This document shows positions 7,274 through 11,961 of a stretch of DNA of 12,641 bases, piece after piece (the stretch's first letter is position 1; each line of letters begins with the position of its first letter). Position numbers and translations under genes: made by a program. The stretch is taken from positions 1 through 12,641 of the forward strand of contig CANTGP010000042.1 of NCBI GenBank assembly GCA_947653315.1. The letters are read 5' to 3'. A model generated the notes under the pieces. The model did not search any database. It worked only from the letters and a program-made list of their open reading frames with translations, and was not told the origin of the DNA. This stretch comes from an uncultured Lachnospiraceae bacterium (lineage in GTDB: Bacteria > Bacillota > Clostridia > Lachnospirales > Lachnospiraceae).

Positions 7274-7316
7274 AACCTCCGCCGTATAATAAACCATCAT
7301 TATGGATGGAGGTATT

Positions 7317-7817
7317 ATGAAAAATATGCCAAAAAACATTACTTACCGGACGACGAAAAGAGTCCTTGCTTTTGGGCTGTGCCTGCTCCTTCTTTGCGCC
7401 TGCTTTGCCGGCTGCGGGAAAGCAGACGGCAAGGCGGCGGACCATTCCGGCAAAAAGGCGGAAATCACCCTGAATGAAGTGGCGCATTCCATTTTTTATG
7501 CACCCATGTATGTTGCCATCGAAGAAGGTTATTTTGCGGAAGAAGGCATTGACCTGACTTTGGTTACCGGCTTCGGTGCGGACAAAACCATGACGGCAGT
7601 CCTTACCGGTGAAGCGGATATCGGTTTCATGGGAAGTGAAAGCACAATTTATACTTATGTAGGCGGTACGCAGGATTATGCGGTGAATTTCGCCCAACTG
7701 ACCCAGCGCGCCGGTAATTTCCTTGTGGCAAGGGAACCGTTGGATCATTTTTCCTGGGATATGTTAAAGGGAAAAGAAGTGTTGGGAGGACGCGCGGGCG
7801 GACGCTCACGTATTTGA
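7317..7817 (+). pseudogene. SsuA/NMT1-type substrate-binding lipoprotein, 3' end lost
   Basis: This is the first 166 residues of an ABC importer substrate-binding protein, about half the usual 320-340. A lipoprotein signal (KRVLAFGLCLLLLCACFAGC, with lipidated Cys33) is followed by a typical NMT1/THI5/SsuA domain: EITLNEVAHSIFYAPMYVAI, EEGYFAEEGIDLTLV, ADIGFMGSEST and KGKEVLGGRAGG. The family binds small ligands such as sulfonates, nitrate or thiamine precursors. The start at 7317 has GGAGG at 7308-7312, and a TATAAT box lies at 7285-7290. Homology ends after GRAGG; the frame then reads RSRI and stops, where the family normally continues with a Met-Pro-Glu segment. Another frame reads TLTYLKK (7802-7822), resembling the next family segment, so a small deletion may precede the junction. 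No permease or ATPase gene follows, consistent with interruption by the element to the right. Confidence 0.82.
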
Positions 7818-7848: not shown

Positions 7849-7875
7849 AAAACAGCCATTTGGCTGTTTTTTATT
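7849..7875 (+). terminator. Terminator at the element's left edge
   Basis: AAAACAGCCA (7849-7858) pairs perfectly with TGGCTGTTTT (7861-7870), followed by further T residues (7871-7872). A-runs on the left make it plausible in both directions. It sits between the truncated lipoprotein gene and parA and would shield parA from read-through. The core ACAGCC/GGCTGT stem recurs in the terminator at 11994-12020. Confidence 0.7.
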
Positions 7876-7907
7876 ATACATCAATTTATATTATGGAGGA
7901 ATATAAA

Positions 7908-8735
7908 ATGGGAAAAATTATTGCGGTTGCAAACCAAAAAGGGGGTGTGGGTAAAACCACAACCTGTATTAGTTTGGGTGTCGGCCTTGCAAGGCAGGGC
8001 AAAAAGGTGCTGCTGGTGGATTTTGACCCGCAGGGTAATACGACGCAGTCACTTGGGTTTAATCCGGATGCCTTGGAAGTAACGGTAAGCGATGTACTGG
8101 ACAAGATGATAGGGAAGGAATATGACATTCCCCGCGACATGGCTATTTTGCACAGCCGGGAGCAGGCGGACCTCCTTCCGGCAAACATTGAACTGGCTAC
8201 CATGGAAATGAAATTGTTAGCCGTTTATATTGGCAGGGAAAAAATCCTTGCCAATTACCTGAAACTGGTAAAAGGGATGTATGATTATATTTTTATAGAC
8301 TGTAAACCAAGCCTTGACATCATTACCCTGAATGCCCTTACGGCTGCTGACAGTGTATTGATTCCCGTGCAGGCACAGTTTTACAGTGTAAAGGGACTGG
8401 AACAGCTTTTGAATACCATCTGCCAGGTGATTACGGGCGGGCTGAATGCCCGTCTGACGATCGAGGGAATCCTGCTTACCCTTGCAAACCCGCAGACAAA
8501 TAATTTTAAGGAAATAAAGAAGGTGGTGGAGCGTGCATACGGCAGGAACATAAAGATTTTTGAAAATTATATTCCAAGGGCGGTGACGGCGGAAGAAGCG
8601 CCGGCGGCAGGGACAAGCATTTACCTGTATGACGGGACGGGAAAGGTTGCCGCAGCCTATGAACGGTTTACGGAAGAATTTCTTTCCGGTAATAATGTCA
8701 GTGTCCCGGTGGAAGGCGGTGGCCGGTATGAGTAG
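7908..8735 (+). CDS. parA: ParA-family partition ATPase
   Basis: This 275-residue Soj/ParA-type ATPase segregates plasmid or element copies by forming ATP-dependent patterns on the nucleoid. The deviant Walker A motif QKGGVGKTT is at 10-18, with both signature lysines (Lys11 and Lys16). The second motif VDFDPQGN is at 37-44, and the Walker B region YIFIDCKPSL at 127-136 carries Asp131; the usual CPPSL is CKPSL here. There is no N-terminal DNA-binding extension, so it is the small type that normally relies on a separate ParB. The start at 7908 has GGAGGA at 7895-7900. An upstream in-frame ATG at 7860 would run through the terminator stem and is unlikely. The stop overlaps the next gene, which is therefore the likely partner. 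Confidence 0.93.
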   Translation: MGKIIAVANQKGGVGKTTTCISLGVGLARQGKKVLLVDFDPQGNTTQSLGFNPDALEVTVSDVLDKMIGKEYDIPRDMAILHSREQADLLPANIELATMEMKLLAVYIGREKILANYLKLVKGMYDYIFIDCKPSLDIITLNALTAADSVLIPVQAQFYSVKGLEQLLNTICQVITGGLNARLTIEGILLTLANPQTNNFKEIKKVVERAYGRNIKIFENYIPRAVTAEEAPAAGTSIYLYDGTGKVAAAYERFTEEFLSGNNVSVPVEGGGRYE

Positions 8736-9741
8736 GAATGTCCCAATAATGTCGGCAGCCAATTATACCGATATTTTCACCCAGCCGGTGTTTAAAAACC
8801 AAAACGGAAACTGGTGGAGTGACGTAAATTATGCGGATTCCTTGGATATCATAAGGGAGAATTTCCTTAAGGCAAGGGAATCCTTTGTTGCGATAGGCTA
8901 TTATTTAAAACACATAAAAGAAAAAGAACTGTATTTGGAAGGCGGATATCCGGATATATGGCAGTGCGCCCAGGCGGAATTCGGGCTGTCGCAGACGGCA
9001 GCCTTTAATTACATGAAAATGAATGACGCCTATTCCGTGGACGGGGACACACCAATCCTGGATGAAAAATATGCGGGGTTTAATAAAAGCCAGTTACAGG
9101 AAATGCTTACCTTGACGGCGGAAAAAAGGGAGGAGGTTACACCGGAACAGACGGTCAGCCAAATCAGGGAGACTGCCAGGGAAGAAAAAAAGGAAAAGGA
9201 GCCGTCAGAGCAGGCGGTCAGGGAATTTTACTGCCAATATGTAAAAGACATGGATTATGAACCCCGCGGCACGTTGAAGGAGCGGTTAAAGCAGAAGTAC
9301 AGGAATGCAGGCGGGACTCATGAAAATTTGCAATGGGACGGTTCGGCGAGGGGGATTAAACTAAACCGGGCGGATGAAATAACATGGGCGCACCTTGTAA
9401 AGCTGATCGACCGTTATTTCCCATATGTTCCGCAGGAACCGGTATGTGGACAGCCGGTATGCGGACCGCCAATGGAACCGGAAGAAGAACCGGCAGAAGA
9501 AACAGGGGAGCCACAGATTCCGGGACAGATGCAGATTGGGGATTATCCGGAAGTGCTGCCGGATAATCCCATAGATGACCAACGGGATTGTAACAGCCGT
9601 TGTGGAGGGGATTATTCCCCATGCACTCCGGGGGAGAAGCATATGGATGTACTGTGCAGGCTTTTGGAGCAGGAAAATGATGAAGATGCAGCAGAGGCTT
9701 TAAGGTGGGCGATTAGTACCCTGGAAAAAATAATGGAATAA
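8728..9741 (+). CDS. Putative ParB-like DNA-binding partner of ParA (DUF3102-like)
   Basis: This 337-residue protein is translationally coupled to parA by an 8-base overlap (start at 8728 inside the end of parA). Residues 38-105 form a helical region, SLDIIRENFLKARESFVAIG through WQCAQAEFGLSQTAAFNYMK, that resembles DUF3102-like DNA-binding proteins with a helix-turn-helix. A charged linker follows (about 130-165). A second conserved-looking block, GTLKERLKQKYRNAGGTHEN to LVKLIDRYFPY, covers about 181-233. A Pro/Glu-rich tail with a short repeat (EPVCGQPVCGPP) and a C-terminal helical segment ending LRWAISTLEKIME complete it. No canonical ParB nuclease motif is visible. The ParA-neighbour position suggests that it binds the centromere and stimulates ParA. 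I infer this; the sequence alone does not prove it. Confidence 0.65.
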   Translation: MSRNVPIMSAANYTDIFTQPVFKNQNGNWWSDVNYADSLDIIRENFLKARESFVAIGYYLKHIKEKELYLEGGYPDIWQCAQAEFGLSQTAAFNYMKMNDAYSVDGDTPILDEKYAGFNKSQLQEMLTLTAEKREEVTPEQTVSQIRETAREEKKEKEPSEQAVREFYCQYVKDMDYEPRGTLKERLKQKYRNAGGTHENLQWDGSARGIKLNRADEITWAHLVKLIDRYFPYVPQEPVCGQPVCGPPMEPEEEPAEETGEPQIPGQMQIGDYPEVLPDNPIDDQRDCNSRCGGDYSPCTPGEKHMDVLCRLLEQENDEDAAEALRWAISTLEKIME

Positions 9742-9774
9742 GCTATATATCATGCAACCGCATATTATATAGGA

Positions 9775-9808
9775 CTGTACGGGAACCTCCAACCTTAATT
9801 CCGTACAG
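9775..9808. repeat. Inverted repeat in the rep leader
   Basis: CTGTACGG (9775-9782) is followed after 18 bases by CCGTACAG (9801-9808), a perfect 8-bp inverted repeat. The loop contains AACCTCCAACC, which is complementary in part to a GGAGG-type ribosome binding site such as AAGGAGG at 9895-9901. It sits immediately before the terminator at 9811-9844 and could be part of an attenuator or a small control RNA for rep. Regulation is inferred from layout only. Confidence 0.4.
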
Positions 9809-9810
9809 CC

Positions 9811-9844
9811 GGGGCAGTGGGACAAATACCATTGCCCCTTTTTT
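9811..9844 (+). terminator. Strong terminator between the par and rep genes
   Basis: GGGGCAGTGG (9811-9820) pairs with CCATTGCCCC (9829-9838), nine Watson-Crick pairs and one G-U, around the loop GACAAATA. Six T residues follow (9839-9844). It ends par transcription, and rep lies 130 bases further on. Any rep transcript starting upstream would have to read through it, so it could also serve as an attenuator. Confidence 0.8.
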
Positions 9845-9973
9845 GGTGGAGGGAATGGGAATTTATCACGGAAATAAACAATAAGACGGTAAGAAAGGAG
9901 GCGGTGAAGGGGTAAAGTAAGAAAAATAAGAGAAAGGAAAAGGTTATGGATGAAAGAAAGGGAAGAAAATGAC

Positions 9974-10981
9974 ATGGCTTTCCGTTATTTTTTAGGGGAG
10001 GAAAGCGAACTGTTCAGTTTTGTTAAGATTCCAAAGATATTTTTTTGTGACAAACGTTTTGAGCCGTTGTCATACGGCGCAAAGATATTATACGGGCTGC
10101 TTTTGGACAGAATGGGCCTTTCAAGGAAGAACCAGTGGTATGATGACCAGGGAAGGGTTTACGTAATTTACACCATCGGGAAAATCCAGGAGGATTTTGC
10201 GGTAAGCAAAACCGTGGCAGTCCGTTTCATGAAGGAACTGGAGGATTTCGGGCTGGTTGAGAAGAAACGGCGCCCGAATGCGGCAGCCATGATATATGTA
10301 AAAAATTTTATCCTTCCGGATATGGAGGAAGAAGAAAAAATGCAGGAAAACAGCGGAATTCCATCAGATGGACTTCCGGAAGTCCAAAACCGGGAAGTCC
10401 AAAATCCAGACTTCCAAAAAAACACGGAACTGTCAGGAAGTCCAAAATCCGGACTTCCAAAACATGGACTTCCGGAAGTCCAAAAAATGGAATCTAATAA
10501 GACTGATAAGAATAAGACTAATAAGATGATATCATCTTCTTCCGGATTTGAAGCGGAAGAAGACATGGAAGGGATGATGAAGGAGAAAATAAATTATTCC
10601 GGCATCATAACGGCGGGATATGATAAAGAACTTGCGGATGCCATGCTGGAAAGCCTTGCGGAAATGTTCCGTTCCGGCAGGCAGAAAATGAAAATAAACG
10701 GCATGACCCTGCCGATGCAGCAGGCGAAGGAAAAAATATGGGACAACATGACGGAAAGAAGTTTCTGCCTGATACTGGAAAACATCAGGGGAAGCGGAGT
10801 GGAAGCCGTATATAACCTGCAGAATTACCTGGTGGCATGTTTTTACAACCTGGTCCTGCTGGATAAGGGACAGAATCCTGAAAAACGGCAGAAAGAATCC
10901 GGCGGTTTTGAGCAGAGACAGTATGATTTTAAGACACTGGAGGACAGGCTGCTGGGTATTTCAGCCGGGGAACCGGGATAA
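9974..10981 (+). CDS. repA: RepA_N replication initiator with DUF6017-like C-terminus
   Basis: This 335-residue initiator starts replication of RepA_N plasmids and related integrative elements. Residues 1-110 match the RepA_N domain: FRYFLGEESELFSFVKIPKI, then PLSYGAKILYGLLLDRMGLS and a winged-helix-like part VYVIYTIGKIQEDFAVSKT through FGLVEKKRR. Residues 115-190 are a low-complexity linker whose DNA carries the repeat cluster at 10370-10481. Residues 195-300 resemble DUF6017, and the tail FEQRQYDFKTLEDRLL is a C-terminal motif seen in such proteins. The family usually begins at this point, with GGGAAG 8 bases upstream. An in-frame ATG at 9950 is an alternative and would add eight residues. 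An 8-codon frame (9946-9972, MDERKGRK) overlaps that region and ends two bases before the chosen start, possibly coupling translation. Confidence 0.88.
   Translation: MAFRYFLGEESELFSFVKIPKIFFCDKRFEPLSYGAKILYGLLLDRMGLSRKNQWYDDQGRVYVIYTIGKIQEDFAVSKTVAVRFMKELEDFGLVEKKRRPNAAAMIYVKNFILPDMEEEEKMQENSGIPSDGLPEVQNREVQNPDFQKNTELSGSPKSGLPKHGLPEVQKMESNKTDKNKTNKMISSSSGFEAEEDMEGMMKEKINYSGIITAGYDKELADAMLESLAEMFRSGRQKMKINGMTLPMQQAKEKIWDNMTERSFCLILENIRGSGVEAVYNLQNYLVACFYNLVLLDKGQNPEKRQKESGGFEQRQYDFKTLEDRLLGISAGEPG
10370..10481. repeat. Mirror-symmetric iteron cluster inside rep (candidate oriV)
   Basis: Eight copies of an 8-bp box, GGACTTCC or its complement GGAAGTCC, occur at 10370, 10378, 10393, 10408 (one mismatch, AGACTTCC), 10436, 10451, 10466 and 10474. 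The steps between starts are 8, 15, 15, 28, 15, 15, 8. Positions and orientations are both symmetric about 10425.5. The outer pairs form two copies of the 16-bp palindrome GGACTTCCGGAAGTCC, and six boxes are followed by AAAA. In RepA_N plasmids the replication origin is known to lie in repeats within the central part of the rep gene, exactly this location. I infer that RepA binds these boxes. Confidence 0.75.
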
Positions 10982-10983
10982 TT

Positions 10984-11012
10984 TTGCCTATACGCGGAAT
11001 GGATGGTATAAT
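10984..11012 (+). promoter_or_regulatory. Sigma-A promoter of the Fic toxin-antitoxin operon
   Basis: A -35 element TTGCCT (10984-10989), a 17-base spacer and a perfect -10 TATAAT (11007-11012) preceded by an extended TGG lie in the short gap after rep. The AAAGGAGGT ribosome binding site of the antitoxin gene follows at 11031-11039. Transcription should begin near 11019. Confidence 0.7.
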
Positions 11013-11047
11013 AGTATTCAAATAAAAAACAAAGGAGGTATCCGGCC

Positions 11048-11221
11048 ATGTTATCAAAGGAGCAGGTGTGGGATTATGCGATCGGGATGAGCAGCCTCGC
11101 AGGCGGGGAACTGTCCCCTGAACTGCTTGAACTGATTGAGAAGGAAAAAAGGGGGGAAGTGACAATGGATGAAATAAATGAGTTTTTAGACCAAAAATAC
11201 CAACTCCCGAAAAGGGAATAG
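11048..11221 (+). CDS. VbhA-like antitoxin of the Fic module
   Basis: This 57-residue protein lies immediately upstream of a Fic toxin gene, the arrangement of class I Fic modules. The order of its segments follows VbhA-type antitoxins: a short helix ending IGMSSLAGGE, then SPELLELIEKEKRGEVTMDEINEFLDQKY. In the family, the N-terminal inhibitory helix carries (S/T)xxxE(G/N), whose glutamate blocks ATP in the Fic active site. Aligned through the conserved SPE and GE(V/I)T parts, this protein reads MSSLAG there, with Ala for Glu and Met for Ser. Inhibition may therefore be weak or work differently. A strong AAAGGAGGT precedes the start, and the toxin gene begins three bases after the stop. Confidence 0.72.
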   Translation: MLSKEQVWDYAIGMSSLAGGELSPELLELIEKEKRGEVTMDEINEFLDQKYQLPKRE

Positions 11222-11224
11222 GGG

Positions 11225-11961
11225 ATGAGGGATCCATATTTATATCCGCATACGGATGTTCTGCGGAACCGTGCCGGTATTCAATCCAAACCGGAACTGG
11301 AAGTGTTTGAAAGGGAGCGGACTTTGGTGCGTTTGGGAGAATGGCTGGCGGACGGTTCCGTGAAAAGCCATGATTTTCACGGCCTCTGCCAATTACACCG
11401 GCATATTTTCCAGGATGTCTATGAATGGGCAGGTGTCCCCCGGATTATCAATATCGAAAAAAGCGAGAGGGCATTGGGCGGGCTTTCCGTCGAGTATTCC
11501 GACTGTTTTGACATTGCGGGGGATGCCGGGCACGTACTGGACGACATGAACGGCTTCCGGTGGGACAGGGCGTCTTTTGATGAAGTGGTAAGGAATTACA
11601 GCCGGTTTATGGCGGATTTGTGGAAAGTCCATCCTTTCAGGGAAGGGAATACCAGGACAGTCGTTACGTTCTGTAACTGCTTTTTGATGGACAAAGGTTT
11701 TACCATGGATACCGGGCTGTACAAAGAGCATGCGGAATATGTCAGGCAGCCCTTGTGGCAGCGGATGCCATTTTCCATGATCTTGGGGATAAAAGGAAAC
11801 CGGAATATTTGGAAAGGATTGTCGCGGATTCCCTGCGGGAAGGCTGGCGGGAAAAAACATCGGTATTGGGGAAACTGAAAGAAAACCAGTCAAAACTGGA
11901 AAAGGGTAAAAAAATGCAGGATGCCGTAAAACGGCGGTCCCGTGATGACAGGGAAAAATAG
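11225..11961 (+). pseudogene. Fic-family AMP-transferase toxin, frameshifted
   Basis: Fic toxins transfer AMP to target proteins (DNA gyrase and topoisomerase IV in class I modules) and arrest growth. Residues 1-175 are a good Fic domain: DFHGLCQLHRHIFQDVYEWAG, then the active-site motif VHPFREGNTR at 135-144 with catalytic His136. The usual GNGRxxR is GNTRTVV here, so the last arginine is missing. After Gln175 (codon 11747-11749) homology leaves the frame, which runs on with unrelated residues to a stop at 11876-11878. The family continuation (ALVAADAIFHDLGDKRKPEY then LERIVADSLREGW) is in the next frame, 11749-11961. One missing G, making CAGGCCC into CAGCCC, explains it. The product would lose about 70 C-terminal residues but keep the catalytic motif. 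No slippery heptamer is evident, so programmed shifting is unlikely. Confidence 0.85.

Follow-up and report, generated by a model that had tools for sequence, protein, structure and literature searches.

The window (the whole 12,641-nucleotide stretch analysed here, from an uncultured Lachnospiraceae bacterium) encodes a RepA_N-family replication initiator and, upstream of it, a ParA-type ATPase that likely belongs to the same element.

7860..8735, + strand: parA-type ATPase gene (PF13614, 198.5 bits), resembling a gene near rep in genome G398
9950..10981, + strand: rep, RepA_N-family replication initiator of 343 amino acids (PF06970, 82.7 bits; cut-off 30)

The Rep protein comprises an N-terminal winged-helix domain, a likely disordered linker at about residues 117–203 and a helical C-terminal domain. 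Its N terminus carries the winged-helix fold of solved RepA_N initiators, with PDB relatives 4pt7, 5kbj (a Rep–DNA complex), 4pql and 4pta. The full-length model has a mean pLDDT of 57, with residues 117–203 below 50, and this low confidence fits disorder in the linker. A PDB search with the model of the C-terminal domain (mean pLDDT 73.4) returned no match at E ≤ 0.001, and none that was DnaD-like, so we claim no likeness to DnaD. A preliminary description of this DNA had placed an array of boxes in a linker between RepA_N and ‘DUF6017-like’ domains. The linker position is borne out; the window protein has no DUF6017 match at E ≤ 0.01, and its relative L069 (genus mate G398) does match that family (28.3 bits, cut-off 27).

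Nine half-sites in the rep linker

An 8-bp motif, GGA-NN-TCC (GGANNTCC), occurs in nine copies in the middle of rep, one of them imperfect. The copies are listed as half-sites H1 to H9, each with the number of aligned protein sequences (described below) that could encode it.

10355..10362, + strand: half-site H1, GGAATTCC; encodable in 17/25
10370..10377, + strand: half-site H2, GGACTTCC; encodable in 18/26
10378..10385, + strand: half-site H3, GGAAGTCC; encodable in 25/26
10393..10400, + strand: half-site H4, GGAAGTCC; encodable in 26/26; could belong to iterons H3–H4 and H4–H5
10408..10415, + strand: half-site H5, AGACTTCC (one mismatch); encodable in 19/26
10436..10443, + strand: half-site H6, GGAAGTCC; encodable in 14/26, the other 12 reading GSL, with one mismatch at best
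10451..10458, + strand: half-site H7, GGACTTCC; encodable in 26/26; could belong to iterons H6–H7 and H7–H8
10466..10473, + strand: half-site H8, GGACTTCC; encodable in 11/26
10474..10481, + strand: half-site H9, GGAAGTCC, the last intact half-site; encodable in 24/26

The outer GGA and TCC bases are self-complementary, so the direction of a box is set by its two central bases alone. Eight boxes of the form GGACTTCC or GGAAGTCC had been listed in the preliminary description, at 10370, 10378, 10393, 10408 (AGACTTCC, one mismatch), 10436, 10451, 10466 and 10474; these positions, their spacing of 8-15-15-28-15-15-8 and their reflection about 10425.5 all hold in the window sequence. The two palindromes noted at the ends are likewise present, each spanning 18 bp with the flanking T/A (10369–10386 and 10465–10482), as is the direct repeat of 10393–10419 at 10436–10462 (96% identity). 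Absent from that description is the ninth box, GGAATTCC at 10355, 15 bp 5′ of the first one listed. Directly 3′ of six boxes (10378, 10393, 10408, 10436, 10451 and 10474) stands AAAA, always on the + strand, and these tracts are therefore not mirrored.

Such a cluster of boxes is not a product of chance. Here 8 exact copies of GGANNTCC fall within 127 bp; when rep was dinucleotide-shuffled 2000 times, no more than 3 did so, and 20000 synonymous recodings of the linker yielded no more than 6 boxes against the 8 observed. A scan of the 3.24-Mb assembly (81% complete) finds the double box GGANNTCCGGANNTCC nowhere but at the left and right ends of the array, whereas single box pairs with 15-bp spacing turn up at three further, scattered sites. 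No relative turned up among viral contigs when these were searched with the protein and with the alignment; the 16-bp palindrome matched four viral contigs, in each of which a single double box stands alone, outside any array.

Conservation among related rep genes

The preliminary description had proposed checking whether boxes and spacing are kept in the DNA of relatives as the linker protein diverges. We aligned the window protein with P0001–P0025, 25 of 1990 matches (~47–97% identity); P0028 and P0040 were aligned and left out of the counts. Because the close relatives other than L069 are protein sequences only, boxes and box centres were inferred by codon compatibility, which is no proof of the DNA. 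By this measure the box positions are GGANNTCC-encodable in 11 to 26 of the 25–26 rows, and 170 non-box positions are so in a mean of 0.4%; the highest of these are 10345 (5/25) and 10426, inside the 28-bp gap (5/26). All 26 sequences agree in the spacing of the third through ninth boxes, and in 4/26 the left side is longer by 5 or 10 residues (15 or 30 bp).

The linker is of low complexity and its length changes in five-codon steps, as might be expected if only the protein were repetitive, so that the boxes merely followed from a repeated peptide and the DNA had no role. We find this reading scarcely credible. The boxes are read in two different frames (GxP and ExQ/DxQ), synonymous recoding loses them, and the peptide at the boxes varies (GSP, GLP, GIP; EVQ, DFQ, EFQ) while the box stays encodable. 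The low model confidence of the linker fits disorder, and the corresponding linker encoded in pSK41 can be deleted from its Rep (PMC5703833). The synonymous-recoding tests and the 25 related proteins instead support selection on the DNA of the boxes, and the linker peptide would mostly be an incidental translation of the boxes. The locus may serve as an example of DNA held by binding-site selection while the encoded peptide drifts.

Genome and contig searches yielded one close relative with DNA, L069, whose boxes are spaced 15-15-23-15-15-28-15-15-8 in rep orientation; by eye, its 23-bp step contains a half-site with one mismatch. Extra half-sites in 15-bp steps lie at the 5′ end of that array (2105–2135), and the longer linkers of P0007, P0011 and P0016 suggest likewise.

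A broader set of rep loci was drawn from genomes of the window’s family or class and from contigs, one genome search giving matches in 100 of 397 genomes, of which the best 30 were taken as loci. Eleven of 77 loci were dropped (one window duplicate and ten with cut or unreadable frames), and removal of near-duplicates then left 49, 58/73 or 55 genes. Across the 49 non-redundant loci, which include the window and contig hits mostly titled Lachnospiraceae, Oscillospiraceae or Clostridia, the core GAAGT/ACTTC has a density of 12.65 per kb in the linker versus 2.35 before it and 2.42 after it, with offsets of 7, 16 and 23 dominating. GAAGT/ACTTC pairs at these offsets number 78 in 55 genes; 300 synonymous recodings gave 3.2 on average and never more than 8. 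At least one exact pair is found in 27/55 genes; its absence from the other 28/55 counts against the array being an origin, and some pair-less genes use other boxes, such as a Monoglobus plasmid with 23-bp CACGA repeats. The 28-bp step is also present in L008, L015 and L029. Spacings of 16 and 8 (a 24-bp period) with 33 bp to the AT-rich repeats were seen in L012, L033 and L004, perhaps a second geometry class.

Iterons, AT-rich repeats and the mirror axis

Iterons of RepA_N systems have been characterised as repeats in inverted orientation that run towards a poly-A tract (PMC7145576). Since AAAA follows boxes in the window, the 15-bp pairs can be read as half-site, A-tract and inverted half-site. 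Inverted sub-repeats converging on an A-tract are found at two places, both in the middle of the rep sequence, where pSK41 also has its iterons.

10393..10415, + strand: RepA_N-type iteron, GGAAGTCC - AAAATCC - AGACTTCC, from sequence
10436..10458, + strand: RepA_N-type iteron, GGAAGTCC - AAAATCC - GGACTTCC, from sequence

On their sequence, the boxes are very likely RepA_N iteron half-sites, that is, inverted 8-mers set 15 bp apart around an A-tract. There are five 15-bp pairs in the window (H1–H2, H3–H4, H4–H5, H6–H7 and H7–H8), and AAA stands in the spacer of 35/44 such half-site pairs among the 55 genes. The H1–H2 spacer has no A-tract, which counts against an iteron origin. The earlier statement that the design was not recognised as described was too strong for the array itself, given the publication of RepA_N inverted-repeat iterons (PMC7145576) and of pSK41 Rep boxes inside rep (PMC5703833).

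Palindromic outer bases set these half-sites apart: they occur in 7/8 half-sites of the window and 7/7 GAAGT-core sites in L069 versus 4/206 half-sites elsewhere. Triples spaced 15-15 are found by core motif in the window only (55 genes), and by GGANNTCC also in L069. Self-complementarity thus appears to accompany half-sites that lie in two overlapping iterons, in one lineage. Near self-complementarity (GGA-NN-TCC) likely lets one half-site, H4 or H7, serve two overlapping iterons, and such sharing would offer a concrete handle on the number of RepA dimers that an origin needs.

Immediately downstream of the half-sites the sequence becomes rich in A+T.

10482..10541, + strand: least stable 60-mer of 9700–11100 and third of the whole window (23% G+C), beginning right after the last half-site
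10496..10525, + strand: two 15-bp AT-rich repeats, AATAAGACT(G/A)ATAAG, the predicted unwinding side (from a repeat search; like repeats occur in relatives and staphylococcal plasmids)

The repeats, which the preliminary description had not mentioned, carry ACTGA and ACTAA (ACTRA). From the GAAGT of H9 (10475) to the first ACTRA repeat (ACTGA, 10502) is 27 bp. A repeat run with an upstream GAAGT was present in 29/58 genes, and in 15/29 of these, the window and a Staphylococcus epidermidis plasmid among them, the run starts with an ACTRA exactly 27 bp from the last GAAGT; pSK41 has, by eye, a diverged GAAAT at 27 bp. Codon usage was counted in the 47/58 genes with a clear N/T/D-rich tract, the window (score 6) being left out: threonine is written ACT in 80% of cases inside the tract versus 25% elsewhere, asparagine is written AAT in 90% versus 67%, and the step between adjacent ACTRA motifs is 15 bp in 61/76 cases. 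ACTRA pairs in 55 genes number 65, versus a mean of 2.2 and a maximum of 9 in synonymous recodings; as controls, N-terminal parts gave 1 iteron pair and 0 ACTRA pairs, and C-terminal parts 0 and 2.

At least one ACTRA pair is present in 38/55 genes, and both kinds of pair, iteron and ACTRA, in 20/55. Several observations weigh against an origin here, namely the absence of ACTRA pairs from 17/55 genes, the absence of a 15-bp ACTRA run from L069 and the description of RepN/pAD1-class theta plasmids as having no AT-rich region (PMC9743546). Judged from sequence, the AT-rich repeats are the likely unwinding side. A DnaA-trio reading of the 15-bp repeats fitted poorly by eye. The literature searched, which did not extend to the original pSK41 and RepA_N papers, contained no description of the 15-bp repeats, and we do not claim that they are unpublished.

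The symmetry of the boxes had suggested a two-sided array that assembles the initiator to the left and right of 10425.5, with bidirectional firing from that axis, a mechanism that we consider unlikely. The eight-box spacing in the window is exactly symmetric, positions H2–H9 are mirrored in 22/26 sequences and the third-to-ninth distances are kept in 26/26. Orientation, however, is broken in 11/19, 6/10, 8/26 and 10/19 inferable cases of the four box pairs, with at least one pair broken in at least 14/25 relatives. The orientation rule (central AG versus CT, inferred from protein) is intact at all four pairs in 3/7 fully inferable sequences, these being the window, P0001 and P0002, and the box centres of L069 read AG in 7/10, AT in 2 and TG in 1 (rep orientation). 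Several box positions are also often lost (H8 is encodable in 11/26), it is the left side that is lengthened by 15 or 30 bp in 4/26 sequences and that bears the extra boxes of L069, the AAAA tracts all point one way, and the AT-rich minimum lies at one end, off the axis. At 10489, where symmetry would put a counterpart of the ninth box, stands GGAATCTA, and a box is encodable there in 0/26, so the nine-box array is asymmetric. The positional symmetry consists of two 15-15 triples around one 28-bp gap; since triples that share half-sites and a single gap suffice to produce it, near-mirror spacing needs no two-sided mechanism. The proposed symmetry thus survives in the positions of H2–H9 and is broken by orientation, left-only additions and one-sided AT-rich repeats: it is real in spacing and partly kept in relatives, and is probably not the mechanism.

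A candidate origin and its carrier element

It is already known that a RepA_N origin can lie inside rep; what goes beyond the textbook are the nearly self-complementary half-sites and the 15-bp ACT(A/G)A repeats, which occur in reps of Clostridia as well as staphylococci. The closest mapped case is pSK41 of Staphylococcus aureus, whose Rep binds four Rep boxes mid-rep, in its origin (PMC5703833). Like the window, pSK41 has a RepA_N initiator, A-tract repeats mid-rep with a 23-bp period and 15-bp ATACTGA repeats directly downstream. Its 23-bp repeats form a regular tandem, whereas the half-sites of the window are nearly self-complementary and stand in 15-15 triples around one 28-bp gap; and unlike the plasmid, the window rep appears to be part of an integrated element. 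The S. epidermidis plasmid NZ_CP134840 shares with the window GGAAGT/ACTTCC half-sites, alternation of 15 and 8 bp, 27 bp to the first ATACTGA and 15-bp repeats, but its alternation includes no 15-15 triples, and it carries GGAAGTTTACAAAACAAACTTCC-type repeats at 23-bp steps. RepA of the PLE satellites of Vibrio cholerae likewise combines a RepA_N-fold N-terminal domain with semi-palindromic iterons on a poly-A tract, although those iterons are noncoding, in three repeats of ~30 bp, whereas those of the window lie inside rep (PMC7145576, PMC8263062).

The same core and geometry recur in related rep linkers and in the S. epidermidis plasmid, and the mapped pSK41 origin shares the 23-bp period; very likely, therefore, the array is the origin from which an integrative and conjugative element replicates. 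With good confidence we predict that the nine half-sites are RepA-binding iterons of a RepA_N-type origin inside the rep of this likely element. The preliminary description thus stands as regards an iteron array or origin inside a RepA_N rep with boxes kept at the DNA level, and in part as regards the mirror-symmetric design. Counting against an origin, three lactobacillus plasmids and one Enterococcus RepA_N plasmid have repeats at 54 or 66 bp, unlike the window, and the three of these tested have no ACTRA run.

At such an origin, RepA dimers would bind pairs of half-sites through their N-terminal winged helices and bend the A-tracts, with H9 pairing with a degenerate site. Once assembled, the complex would melt the AT-rich 15-bp repeats lying 3′ of it, and the C-terminal domain of RepA may then recruit primase or helicase loader from the host. 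In this way the element, excised as a circle, would replicate, and its own ParA would segregate it.

An array bound by RepA could instead serve control, through incompatibility, handcuffing or repression of rep, rather than initiation. The N-terminal domain of RepA_N proteins is readily tetrameric in crystals (PMC5703833) and in other families iterons take part in copy control, but the array is part of the coding sequence and adjoins AT-rich repeats, just as the mapped origin of pSK41 does, and a role in control in place of initiation seems to us very improbable; the two roles are mutually compatible. An integrated element may leave its origin unused, which counts against an origin, and the array could then be the relic of a decayed origin in a passively replicated element. 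One box does have a mismatch, yet the rep frame is open and the geometry is kept in 25 relatives at ~47–97% identity, which argues for continued selection on the DNA; we rate decay, too, as most unlikely.

If correct, the iteron origin would be a prediction placed to the base in clostridial conjugative elements whose episomal replication is mostly inferred, and would supply a signature for sequence scans, in which half-site pairs at 15/23 bp are followed by 15-bp repeats. More speculatively, RepA_N elements from Clostridia to staphylococci might share a two-part origin in rep, in which inverted half-site iterons are followed by 15-bp ACT(A/G)A repeats in a 27-bp register for opening and helicase entry; the self-complementary half-sites shared by overlapping iterons in the window would then allow mutually exclusive placements of dimers that switch the state of the origin. 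We offer this generalization tentatively, as possible rather than likely.

The carrier of rep is probably an integrative and conjugative element. Where such elements encode RepA_N and ParA, the two have been proposed to allow episomal replication, and Tn5252-, Tn1549- and TnGBS-type elements, like the window, have both genes (PMC4701971); the main text of that paper does not use ‘iteron’ or ‘origin of replication’, whereas in the window the boxes and AT-rich repeats can be located. The homologous rep and parA of G398 have genes for a serine recombinase, a relaxase and a type IV coupling protein and a TrbL-like gene within ~54 kb. In the window’s own fragmented genome, an NMT1/THI5-like binding-protein gene (7302–7817) is cut near 7815 by the putative element, and its second half lies on contig C350 (987–3431) by a 611-aa serine recombinase. 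The parA gene and the recombinase thus flank the two halves of the cut gene; of the gene set of such an element, only parA and rep at one half and the recombinase on C350 at the other were seen in this genome.

Between parA and rep, 8629–9741 encodes a 370-aa protein with no Pfam family, as is true of its G398 counterpart; it is likely the ParB-like partner, with only a sub-threshold match to a replication/partitioning family. Just downstream of rep (11048–11878) are a VbhA-like antitoxin gene (17.7 bits, below the cut-off) and then a gene for a Fic-domain protein, likely a Fic toxin–antitoxin pair, and near the contig end (12000–12509) is a gene for a DUF6075 protein (157 bits).
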